64,000 nt of DNA from Chromohalobacter sp. 11-W (GTDB lineage: Bacteria; Pseudomonadota; Gammaproteobacteria; Pseudomonadales; Halomonadaceae), in assembly GCF_029889905.1 (NCBI RefSeq), contig NZ_JARANZ010000002.1:372001-436000 (forward strand), read 5' to 3'. The notes under the pieces were generated by a model. That model ran no database searches. It was given only the letters and a program-made list of their open reading frames with translations, and was not told where the DNA came from. Position 1 is the stretch's first letter, and each line of letters opens with the position of its first letter. Below, piece by piece: positions 6,479-11,206 of the stretch. Made by a program: the position numbers and the translations under genes.

Positions 6479-9217
6479 TCAGTTCAACTTGCCATGGCAA
6501 TGCTTGTATTTCTTGCCGGAACCGCAAGGACACGGGTCGTTACGGCCCACCTTAGGGCCTTCACGGCGTACCGGCTGTGCGTCCTCCTCGTCGCCAGTAC
6601 GCTCCTCGCCTTCGGCGGCTACCGCCTCAGCCGAGGCCACGGCGTCTTCATGCACTGGCTGGCTGACCGCACGTTCGCGCTCCAGCGTGGCACGCCGCTC
6701 ACGCTCCAGCTCATCGACCTCTTCCTGACGCCGCACTTGCACATGACTCAGGATGCGAATGACATCGTGCTTGATGTTGGCCAGCAGCGTCTGGAAGAGC
6801 TCAAAGGCTTCACGCTTGTATTCCTGCTTGGGATTCTTCTGTGCATAACCACGCAGATGGATCCCGCGGCGCAGATGATCCATGTGTTGCAGGTGTTCCT
6901 TCCAGCGCGTATCGAGCACTTGCAACATGACCTGCTTTTCGAAGCGGCGCATCAGCTCCGGTCCGACTGCCTCGGCCTTGCTGGCAAAGAGACCGCGGTG
7001 CTGGTCATGCAGACGTTCACGCAGCAGGTCTTCATGGAAGTGTTGATCCTCTTCTGCCCATTGCACCAAGGGCACGTCGAGGTTGAACTCCTGCTTGAGA
7101 TAGTCCTGCAACCCGGCAAGATCCCACTGTTCGGGCAGGCTCTGCGCCGGCACATAACTGGTAATGGCCTCGGACAATACTTGCTCACGAATCTCGGCGA
7201 TATTGGACGAGAGATCATCGGTGACAAGCACTTCATTGCGCTGCTGATAGACAACACGGCGCTGGTCGTTGGAAACGTCGTCGTATTCCAGCAGCTGCTT
7301 GCGGATATCGAAGTTGCGGCCCTCGACCTTTTTCTGGGCACGCTCGACGGCGTTGGACACCATCTTGTGTTCGATCGCCTCGCCACGCTCCAGTCCCAGG
7401 GCACCCATCAACCGCTGCACGCGATCGGAGCCGAACAACCGCATGAGGTTGTCTTCCAATGAGAGGAAGAAGCGTGTCGACCCTGGATCGCCCTGACGAC
7501 CGGAGCGCCCGCGCAGCTGATTGTCGATGCGGCGCGATTCGTGGCGCTCAGAACCAATCACATGGAGACCGCCCGCAGCCAGCACAGCATCGTGGCGTTC
7601 CTGCCATGCGGCCTTGAGGGCTGCGACCTGCTCGTCGGAAGGATTATCGAGAGCCGCCGCTTCGGCTTCCCAGTTGCCGCCCAGCACGATGTCGGTACCA
7701 CGCCCAGCCATATTGGTGGCGATGGTCACGGCACCGGGCTGCCCCGCCTGGGCGATGATTTCCGCTTCACTCTGGTGTTGCTTGGCGTTAAGCACATTGT
7801 GCGGTATCTGATACTTCTGCATCAGTTGGGCGAGATATTCCGAGGTTTCGATCGACGCCGTGCCCACCAAGATGGGACGCCCCGCTTCGCGTTGCGTCTT
7901 GACGTCATCGATGATGGCTTCGAATTTCTCTTCACCGCTCATGTAGACCAAATCGTTGTGGTCCACACGCACCAATGGGCGGTTGGTGGGAATCACCATG
8001 ACATCCAGCCCATAAATCTGACGGAACTCGAACGCCTCGGTATCGGCGGTCCCCGTCATCCCCGACAGCTTGTCATACAGACGGAAGTAATTCTGGAAGG
8101 TCGTCGAGGCCAGTGTTTGACTCTCTTTCTGAATTGTCACGCCTTCCTTGGCCTCGACCGCTTGGTGCAGACCCTCGGACCAGCGGCGACCCGGCATGCT
8201 GCGCCCGGTGTGCTCATCGACGATGACCACTTCATCGTTGTTGACGATATAATCGACGTCGCGATGATAGAGATGACGCGCACGCAACGCCGAATGCACA
8301 TGCTGTAGAAGTCCCAGATTCTGGGCCGAGTACAACGAGTCGTCCGCACCCAGAAGCTCCGTCTCTCTCAGTATCCCTTCCAGCTTCTGGTGACCGGTTT
8401 CCGTAAGCTCCACCTGCTTTTGTTTCTCATCGAGGATGAAGTCCCCGCTGGTCGGGTCCTCTTCGTCGCTGCACTCCTCAAGCCCCAAGGAAAGCTGGTT
8501 GATACGCCGGTAGAGCTCGACGTTTTCTTCGACCGGGCCGGAAATGATCAGCGGCGTGCGCGCCTCGTCGATGAGAATCGAGTCGACTTCATCGATGATC
8601 GCGTAGTGCAGCGCACGCTGGACCTTGTCATCCAGCGAAAACGCCATATTGTCACGCAGATAGTCGAACCCAAATTCGTTGTTGGTTCCGTACGTGATAT
8701 CGCAGGCGTAGGCTTCACGCTTCTGGGGTGAGGCCTGGCCGGAGTAGATCGTGCCTACGCTGAGATCGAGAAACTCATAGAGAGGACGCATCCACTCGGC
8801 ATCGCGGCTGGCCAGATAATCGTTGACCGTCACCACGTGCACGCCCTTGCCCGGCAACGCATTGAGATAGACCGACAGAGTACCGACCAGGGTCTTGCCC
8901 TCGCCGGTTTTCATCTCGGCGATGCGCCCTTCGTGAAGCGTCATCCCGCCGACCATCTGCACATCGAAGTGACGCATTCCCATTACGCGCTTACTCGCCT
9001 CGCGCACGACGGCGAAAGCTTCGGGAAGTATCTTGTCGATGGATTCGCCTGACTCCAGGCGCGTGCGGAATTCGCTGGTCTTTGCCGTCAGCGCGGCATC
9101 CTCGAGAGACTCGAACGTGGGTTCCAACACGTTGATGGCCTCGGAGGCCTTGCGCATGCGCTTGACTTCGCGCTCGTTCTTCGAGCCAACCAGCTTACGA
9201 ACGATAGTATTGAGCAT
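6479..9217 (-). CDS. secA: Preprotein translocase ATPase SecA
   Basis: SecA drives Sec-dependent export through SecYEG. The 912-residue protein shows Walker A TGEGKT (104-109), [12 protein letters not shown] (Walker B region), the MAGRGTDI motif of the second nucleotide domain, and a C-terminal zinc-binding SecB/ribosome-contact tail with C896, C898 and C907 in [16 protein letters not shown] at 9224-9227 lies 6 nt before ATG 9217. Just upstream on the same strand is a small membrane-anchored ORF in the position of E. coli secM; the secA ribosome-binding site can pair with the end of that ORF (see findings). Confidence 0.98.
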
Positions 9218-9287
9218 GTGAGATCCTGAAATTCAAAAGTGCCTAAAACGTCATATCGGCCACCGCATCGACGCGGCGCCAGCATCA

Positions 9288-9313
9288 ATATCAGGCGATT
9301 AATCGCCCGATAT
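9288..9313 (-). promoter_or_regulatory. 26-nt inverted repeat spanning the stop codon of the ORF upstream of secA
   Basis: The two 13-nt arms (9301-9313 and 9288-9300) are fully complementary in RNA apart from one G-U pair; the core is GGCGATTAATCGCC. It covers the last six sense codons and TGA stop of the upstream small ORF. No T tract follows on either strand, so it is not a normal terminator. Its distal arm (9287-9295, CCUGAUAUU in RNA) also pairs at 8 of 9 positions with 9225-9233 (AAUUUCAGG), which includes the secA Shine-Dalgarno. This offers two mutually exclusive structures. Confidence 0.5.
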
Positions 9314-9665
9314 CTCGGAATAAGACACTGTGTGGTGGACCTCGGCGCGAGAGGACATCCAATCCCACGCTCAACACATGATAGAAACGCTGCGGCAAGC
9401 GCCACAGGCGAGGAGACGGTGGGCGACGTCGTCTAGTGCCCAACAAGCGCTTGCGTCGCTCCACACGACGCGATTGGGCACGAATGGCTTCCGGCGCCAT
9501 CAGACAGATCTGCGTCAACCGCTCGGCGATACGTAGCGCGTCGGGGTGCATCAACCCTGCCGGTAACAGGCACCCGACCAACAGACCGGCAAGCCACCAT
9601 TGCGCACGATGGCGCGTGCGAACGCGACGCGGCGACGTTGAGCTATGGTGCGTAGCGCTGGTCAT
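9291..9665 (-). CDS. Small membrane-anchored basic protein upstream of secA; candidate SecM-like arrest peptide
   Basis: No family is recognised. The 124-residue product has a basic N-terminus and one hydrophobic segment at about residues 22-39, suitable as a signal or anchor. A very Arg-rich middle follows, then the sequence RRGPP at 107-111, thirteen residues before the end. It is co-directional with secA, 73 nt upstream of it, between secA and divergent dciA, which is where E. coli carries secM. RAPP-like motifs near the C-terminus of small exported proteins beside sec genes are known in ribosome-arrest peptides. Function as an arrest peptide is inference. ATG 9665 has only a weak GGAG 12 nt upstream. 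Confidence 0.55.
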   Translation of the reverse strand: MTSATHHSSTSPRRVRTRHRAQWWLAGLLVGCLLPAGLMHPDALRIAERLTQICLMAPEAIRAQSRRVERRKRLLGTRRRRPPSPRLWRLPQRFYHVLSVGLDVLSRRGPPHSVLFRDIGRLIA

Positions 9666-9733
9666 GCTATCGACGAGCTCCGGCTCATGGTAGATTGCGC
9701 AGACATTCTGCTTTCCTTCGCGCGGGCAAGCCC

Positions 9734-10195
9734 ATGAGTATAAAGGCTAAGCGTTTCCGAGCCCAGTCCATCCACCATCTCATCGACGGATCCGGCGAAT
9801 TGGGATCGGTGGTACGTATGGCGAAGCTGCTGCAGCGGGCCCAACAGCACCTGCGTGCCGGGCTTCCCGCCGAAATCGCCGAGCATGTCTATGTCGGTGG
9901 CTATCGGGAAGGCGCTCTGACGCTCATTACCGATGGCGCCGTATGGCTGACGTGGCTACGCTACGAGCGCCAACGCCTCCTCACACTGCTGCGTCAACTC
10001 CCCGAATTCGAAGCCGTACTCGCGCTCAACTTCAAGGTCCGCCCTGTACACCCTCTCAAGGCGCCCGCTTTTCAGGCACGCGCACTTTCAACCGAAGCCG
10101 CGCATCACCTCAAGGCATGCGCAGACGACACCGCGGACCCCAAGCTAAAAAAAGCGCTGACGCGCCTGGCGTCTCATGCCCCGGACGACGCTTAA
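9734..10195 (+). CDS. dciA: DciA-type replicative helicase loader (DUF721)
   Basis: The 153-residue protein matches the DUF721/DciA family: N-terminal LLQRAQQHLRAGLPAEIAEHVYVGGYREGALTLITDGAVW is the characteristic KH-like fold region (about residues 25-65), followed by a conserved short YERQRLLTLL stretch and a variable tail. DciA loads the DnaB helicase in bacteria lacking DnaC. The start ATG 9734 precedes MSIKAKRF; an upstream in-frame start at 9695 is possible but adds unconserved residues. It is divergent from the secA group and convergent with lpxC, the usual neighbourhood for this gene. Confidence 0.85.
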   Translation: MSIKAKRFRAQSIHHLIDGSGELGSVVRMAKLLQRAQQHLRAGLPAEIAEHVYVGGYREGALTLITDGAVWLTWLRYERQRLLTLLRQLPEFEAVLALNFKVRPVHPLKAPAFQARALSTEAAHHLKACADDTADPKLKKALTRLASHAPDDA

Positions 10196-10294: not shown

Positions 10295-11206
10295 TCAAGC
10301 CAATGCTGGCGCCGCGTACGAGATAGGCGCTGCTTGCGTCTCGTCTTCAAAGGTCACGATTTCCCAGGCATCCTGCTGGGCCATCAAGGCGCGACATAGC
10401 TTGTTATTCAAGCCATGGCCGGATTTGACGCCACGAAATTCACCGATGAGGCTATGCCCCAACTGATACAAATCGCCAATGGCGTCGAGCACCTTGTGCT
10501 TGACGAACTCATCTTCGTAGCGCAAACCACCTTCGTTCACGATACGGTAATCATCGACAACGATGGCATTATCCAGACTTCCGCCGAGCGCCAGATTCTG
10601 GGCGCGCAGGAACTCTAGATCACGCATGAACCCGAAAGTACGTGCGCGGGAAACTTCCTTCACGAACGAAGTCGTCGAGAAGTCGACGCTCGCCGTCTGT
10701 TTCTGGTGCGCAAAAACCGGATGGTCGAAGTCGATGGCGAACGCGACTTTAAAACCGTTATGCGGTAAGAAGCGCGCTTCTTTATCGTCCTCTTCAACCA
10801 CGATCTCACGCTTGATGCGGATGAACTTCTTGGCCGCCCCTTGTTCAGCGATGCCCGCGGACTGAATCAAGAAGACGAACGGCCCAGCGCTACCATCCAT
10901 GATGGGCACTTCCGGGGCACTGAGCTCGACGAAGACATTGTCGATCCCCAAGCCGGCAAATGCCGACATCAGGTGCTCTACCGTCGCCACCTTGACGCCG
11001 TCACGCGAAAGCGCGGTACAAAGCGTCGTGTCGGTCACGTATTCGGCGTTGGCGGCGATCTGCACCACTGGATCGAGATCGGTACGTACGAAGACGACGC
11101 CAGTATTGACCGGCGCGGGGCGCAGCGTCAGGTAAACCTTTTCACCTGAGTGCAAACCCACACCAGTGGCACGGATGGTATTCTTTAATGTACGTTGTCT
11201 AATCAT
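10295..11206 (-). CDS. lpxC: UDP-3-O-acyl-N-acetylglucosamine deacetylase LpxC
   Basis: LpxC catalyses the committed, zinc-dependent deacetylation step of lipid A synthesis in the cytosol. Its 303 residues match the family. The zinc ligands are visible as H78 (in EHLMSAFAG), H237 and D241 (in HKVLDAIGD), and the catalytic H264 lies in SGHGLNNK; E77 precedes H78. It follows ftsZ on the same strand as in E. coli and Pseudomonas, with its own likely promoter in the 115-nt gap. FtsH-mediated turnover through the C-terminus is known in E. coli; this tail ends in APALA, also nonpolar. Confidence 0.97.

Follow-up and report, generated by a model that had tools for sequence, protein, structure and literature searches.

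The closest described counterparts of the element reported here are the RAPP-like arrest peptides of the RQH class. Among these, uA_RQH_Pseudomonadales carries its motif as R109GPP, is described from some Pseudomonadales, where it precedes secA, and is reported to stall both Escherichia coli and Bacillus subtilis ribosomes in vitro with fAP values >0.9 (Fujiwara et al. 2024, PMC10987492). RGPP and RAPP are reported to be the sequences that most readily become robust stalling cores, and to be over-represented upstream of sec genes (PMC12992588). We have analysed a 64,000-nucleotide (nt) stretch of the Chromohalobacter sp. 11-W genome (contig NZ_JARANZ010000002.1, positions 372,001 to 436,000), hereafter the window, in which an open reading frame (ORF) of 124 codons plus stop (9291 to 9665, minus strand) stands directly before secA. 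We consider it highly probable that this ORF encodes a monitoring-substrate arrest peptide of the RAPP/RGPP class and that the peptide controls secA.

Translation of positions 9665 to 9291 bore out the gene structure given in the original prediction; it yields 124 residues plus stop, a hydrophobic segment (WWLAGLLVGCLLPAGL, residues 23-38), Arg-Gly-Pro-Pro at residues 108-111 (encoded at 9344-9333, minus strand), and a gap of 73 nt between the stop codon and the secA start at 9217, in the same orientation. By its sequence, the ORF has the features that define the published RAPP-like RQH class: it is a small upstream ORF (<300 residues) of unknown function located directly before secA in the same orientation, it has an N-terminal signal or transmembrane segment, its RAPP-like motif is C-terminal and conserved, and the two are separated by far more than the 30 residues of the class definition. 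The proposed arrest core is DVLSRRGPP (residues 103-111, 9333 to 9359, minus strand), with RGPP at 9333-9344. In the toeprints reported for RQH peptides the third motif residue occupied the P site in all cases, which makes Pro110 (9336-9338, minus strand) the predicted P-site codon (PMC10987492). The protein gave no meaningful Pfam or NCBIfam match (one Pfam hit, E 0.67), nor did a 23-member alignment of its family (alignment A1; four families were hit by one member each, best E 0.012), so that the unrelated enzyme family whose appearance would have spoken against an arrest peptide did not emerge. No solved structure was found for the protein at E values up to 1.

Homologues are nearly universal in the bearing clade. 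The protein query (P0001) matched 32 of the 58 genomes first searched, 31 within Halomonadaceae and one, weakly, outside the family; the weak match of G044 (E 0.007) in this search was not counted as a homologue. A profile of the 23 rows of A1 matched 257 of 275 Halomonadaceae genomes. The 18 without a match comprise 16 genomes of four genera (g2, g4, g22 and g24) and two incomplete assemblies, G235 (80% complete) and G266 (66% complete), for both of which the N-terminus of secA was likewise missing from the searches. Because these account for every unmatched genome, a match is present in all 240 genomes of the 20 bearing genera with completeness of 90% or more and contamination of 5% or less. 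A search of 341 genomes of the order matched 15 family members and two short, weak places (G395, E 3.5e-4; G573, E 6.8e-4, containing stops), neither of which was counted as a homologue. Scanning of a species collection returned 162 relatives, from which 80 named loci were kept, all in Halomonadaceae (Chromohalobacter, Halomonas, Vreelandella, Billgrantia, Litchfieldella, Modicisalibacter, Onishia, Aidingimonas, Phytohalomonas and one unclassified). Together with 30 loci from the 58-genome search these made up 110 loci that were read, some genomes occurring in each of the two sources and the distinct 3' regions numbering 95. Translations were made for these 110 loci and for G015, a distant member; the remaining matches among the 257 genomes were counted from the profile search alone.

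Although ORFs were selected at the 110 loci without use of the motif, R[AG]PP was present in 110/110, positioned 1-16 residues from the stop, and RGPP was kept in G015. When the protein was shuffled 200,000 times, R[AG]PP fell within 16 residues of the C-terminus in 0.27% of the shuffles. The original prediction had named homologues lacking RGPP, or lacking the ORF itself, as grounds for its rejection; in the alignment of related Halomonadaceae, the hydrophobic segment was retained, as was RGPP or RAPP. Among the 95 distinct loci the arginine and both prolines are invariant, and the second residue is glycine in 92 and alanine in three. Conservation extends upstream, with aspartate at position -5 in 91 loci, valine at -4 in 86 and leucine at -3 in 82, while position -1 is held by arginine (70), glutamine (16) or proline (7). 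The RAPP members (L030, L121 and L180) all have proline at -1 and have lost DVLxR; proline at -1 also occurs in four RGPP members.

Stalling, its position and its relief by export would follow the published class by analogy. The hydrophobic signal would bring the growing chain to the Sec machinery while it is still being made. Under slow export the DVLxRRGPP core would halt elongation, Pro110 occupying the P site and Pro-tRNA the A site, and the paused ribosome would cover mRNA otherwise able to fold onto the secA start, raising secA translation. Once the Sec machinery pulls the chain, the arrest would be released and secA translation would fall back. Pairings of this kind are predicted on the minus strand of the window: GAGGUCC, within the codons of R108-G109-P110 (9337 to 9343), may pair with the Shine-Dalgarno (SD) region of secA, GGAUCUC (9220 to 9226), and AGUGUCU (9323 to 9329) with AGGCACU at 9238-9244. 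Both upstream arms would fall under a ribosome stalled at Pro110, for an assumed footprint of P-14 to P+15. RNAalifold, applied to ten sequences of the window's genus, picks the structure that pairs the SD region with the RGP codons; 95.5% of its cells are paired versus 34-43% after sliding, although this test is biased towards a structure that was itself built from that alignment. Little variation is seen in the two SD helices among these sequences, and the region has ordinary minimum free energy z-scores (-1.2 and -0.6).

Two sets of results weigh against control of secA by a Sec-monitoring arrest peptide. The first concerns the modelled access to the secA start region across the 95 loci. 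Mean SD pairing in a first model was 0.59 with the mRNA free versus 0.54 with the footprint blocked. In a second model the gain was 0.027 at the stall position and was largest 12-18 nt upstream of it, peaking at 0.055 (18 nt). In a two-state model the mean gain in predicted accessibility of the secA start on blocking the footprint was 0.053 versus 0.023 in synonymous-codon controls (Wilcoxon p 0.012), or 0.058 versus 0.024 without the window's genus (p 0.009), where the relatedness of the rows means that these p values do not reflect independent data; within the window's genus the gain was 0.011 versus 0.008. Because the three versions give small or uneven gains, unmasking of the secA SD region by a stalled ribosome was not upheld as a rule for the whole family; it is a possible, weak effect, and the models are suggestive of it. 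The second is the narrow length of the spacer, a trait associated in the published account with YidC monitors, not Sec monitors (PMC10987492).

That spacer lies after the hydrophobic localisation signal (WWLAGLLVGCLLPAGLM, residues 23-39, 9549 to 9599, minus strand), which is conserved in alignment A1 and follows an Arg-rich n-region, as judged by eye on the alignment and by a mean net charge of +4.1. Cys32 (9570-9572, minus strand) falls within the signal as the last residue of a lipobox-like L[VI][GS]C; all 110 loci have the cysteine, and 105 have the full pattern. From this cysteine to the motif arginine, the distance is 75-82 residues (standard deviation 1.8) in the 95 distinct loci, versus standard deviations of 5.6 for the N-tail, with the nearest ATG taken as the start, and 3.5 for the C-terminal tail, which is 1-16 residues long. 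An invariant cysteine in such a context, at a nearly fixed distance from the motif, would suit a sensor of YidC-mediated membrane insertion or of lipoprotein processing in place of export driven by SecA. We regard this alternative as unlikely, since the gene stands before secA and not yidC, and since hydrophobic residues come after the cysteine, with a permissive pattern, applied without a control, placing a signal-peptidase-I-like site past it in 88 of the 95 loci. The charge of the n-region favours, under the positive-inside rule, an N-in/C-out orientation. Moreover, the end of the hydrophobic stretch lies 67-74 residues (median 70; 110 loci) from the arginine, near the signal-to-arrest distance of 71 given for the short SecM class (PMC10987492).

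The composition of the spacer (residues 40-102, 9360 to 9548, minus strand) invites a further proposal. The start of the spacer is partly conserved, after which it drifts and is strongly basic; across the 95 loci its net charge ranges from +6 to +16 (mean +11.6), and Arg makes up 21% and Lys 1.6% of its residues. A strongly Arg-rich spacer is expected to hinder Sec export, and a strongly basic exported chain is unusual for a halophile. It is conceivable, if doubtful, that the Arg-rich, length-fixed tail is a brake yielding only to a Sec motor in full working order, and that the invariant lipobox-like cysteine couples the end of the arrest to processing of the lipoprotein type or to a set place in the membrane. 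The peptide would then measure export strength, or membrane potential and salt, and not mere SecA engagement.

The ORF is under purifying selection, and its tail past RGPP is almost free. Over ten genomes of the window's genus (G000-G009), the ratio of nonsynonymous to synonymous polymorphism (pN/pS) was 0.22 for the whole ORF, being 0.25 for residues 2-18, 0.05 for 19-40, 0.15 for 41-70, 0.22 for 71-100 and 0.20 for 101-111. It rose to 0.86 in the 13 residues past RGPP, so that the C-terminal tail (residues 112-124, 9294 to 9332, minus strand) is almost unconstrained as protein. Residues 106-111 are invariant among the ten genomes, and the value for 101-111 is not lower because hydrophobic or small residues replace one another at 102, 104 and 105. 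Since the residues just past the hydrophobic segment (41-70) are also conserved, the ORF protein may do more than stall. This conservation would also suit a small membrane or exported protein with a function of its own, in which RGPP is incidental and secA merely adjacent. We find such a protein quite improbable, given that, family-wide, the best conserved columns outside the signal are those of the C-terminal core ending at PP, and that constraint ends there. RAPP-like motifs are, in addition, reported to be excluded from bacterial proteomes (PMC12992588), and neither RGPP nor RAPP occurs in the window's 54 stop-to-stop frames of at least 250 codons (21,545 residues, spurious frames included).

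The bearers form one clade. In a SecA tree of 430 residues, built from 30 bearers, 15 ORF-less family members and 8 outsiders (L197 was dropped, its SecA being cut), a branch supported at 100/99 separates all bearers from the rest. The tree is poorly resolved elsewhere: the outsider L084, on a long branch, adjoins the bearers with weak support of 87/44, and the ORF-less rows need two changes. A single gain of the ORF would be the simplest reading of this tree. Each of the 16 ORF-less family loci (L183-L198) has a Pfam Peptidase_M23 gene upstream of secA, and the putative arrest ORF of the bearing clade sits where these relatives have that gene. Among 55 outsider stretches judged by sequence pattern, 25 have an M23-like gene (six of them also lpxC), 20 have lpxC alone and 10 have neither. 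An origin of the ORF from the N-terminus of an M23 peptidase was considered and found no support (hhalign E 0.53, against one M23 protein).

We also surveyed 75 loci for comparable upstream ORFs and located the start of secA in 71 of them (four bearers, 15 ORF-less family members and 52 loci of other families); the outsiders were the best-scoring loci plus 40 picked to spread over families, and are not a random draw. No plausible RAPP-like upstream ORF was seen in the 67 non-bearers surveyed, which include 52 loci of other families in the order. Three occurrences were set aside as chance: RASP in L098, 559 nt upstream; RAPP in L208, 845 nt upstream in a frame of 49 residues; and RAPC in L229, in a frame of 63 residues 148 nt upstream. 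Halomonadaceae are here taken to be placed in Pseudomonadales, as by GTDB. By elimination (0 of 52 loci of other families in the order), the ORF family is very probably the published uA_RQH_Pseudomonadales.

That the ORF is a strongly diverged SecM orthologue, inherited from a common ancestor with Enterobacterales, is very improbable: it shares with SecM its place between lpxC and secA, an N-terminal signal and a C-terminal R-x-x-P, but homology was rejected on the grounds that BLASTP gave no alignment, hhalign returned E 0.88 (with a single E. coli SecM as partner) and PF06558 had no match in the window's genome while the E. coli control matched, and moreover the SecA tree groups the bearers in a single clade and the ORF-less family loci carry an M23 peptidase gene in that place. 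The earlier description of the ORF as an independently evolved or strongly diverged sensor fits this lack of detectable similarity.

The order of genes on the minus strand is lpxC (10295 to 11206), the ORF and secA (6479 to 9217, identified by its Pfam SecA domains), with dciA (PF05258; 9734 to 10195) on the plus strand between lpxC and the ORF. The divergent gap between the ORF and dciA (9666-9733) is 68 bp. A consensus scan of 9150-9850 returned no sigma-70-type promoter, and three terminator-like sites were found in the same interval versus 0.5 expected. No Rfam match was obtained in 9000-9900 at E values up to 1. A hairpin of 12 pairs spans the ORF's stop codon (9287 to 9314, minus strand); three of its pairs show changes on both sides among the ten genus genomes, and no T run follows it. 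A second hairpin has two pairs with both-side changes.

The bearers among Halomonadaceae gain a defined candidate for feedback on secA. Its history appears unusually clean, with one gain as the simplest reading, the M23 gene in its place among ORF-less relatives, and a match in 240/240 near-complete genomes of the bearing genera. Natural RGPP-to-RAPP changes, and a constrained core next to a free tail, would make it a good system for the birth and upkeep of arrest peptides. We found no paper on an arrest peptide of Halomonas or Chromohalobacter, and Halomonas with secM returned only an unrelated paper, subscription papers and supplements being outside the scope of this search.

Compared with known systems, the ORF resembles E. 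coli SecM in its position before secA (lpxC-secM-secA), its export signal, its C-terminal Arg-Pro arrest core and its proposed feedback on secA. It differs in having no detectable sequence similarity, in its core, which reads DVLxRRGPP and lacks the SecM motif FxxxxWIxxxxGIRAGP, and in spacer charge, where the family mean of +11.6 compares with 0 for SecM residues 38-150. ApdA and ApdP (both RAPP) and ApcA (RAPG), compared here by their published description, likewise have an RAPP-like core near the C-terminus, a localisation signal and a sec or yidC neighbour, although ApdA and ApdP precede secDF2 and ApcA precedes yidC2, in actinobacteria or Alphaproteobacteria (PMC10987492). VemP and MifM, also compared by description, share the monitoring-substrate logic but have secD2/F2 and yidC2 as target genes (PMC10987492). 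With respect to uA_RQH_Pseudomonadales, the arginine of the motif is R109 in the published peptide and R108 in the ORF of the window; R109 is possible in 8 of the 110 loci (two of which, L009 and L110, are from the same genome). An arrest peptide of this kind had already been described in 2024, and to that description the present locus adds near-universality in its clade, an apparent single gain, a fixed geometry, a basic spacer and an invariant cysteine.
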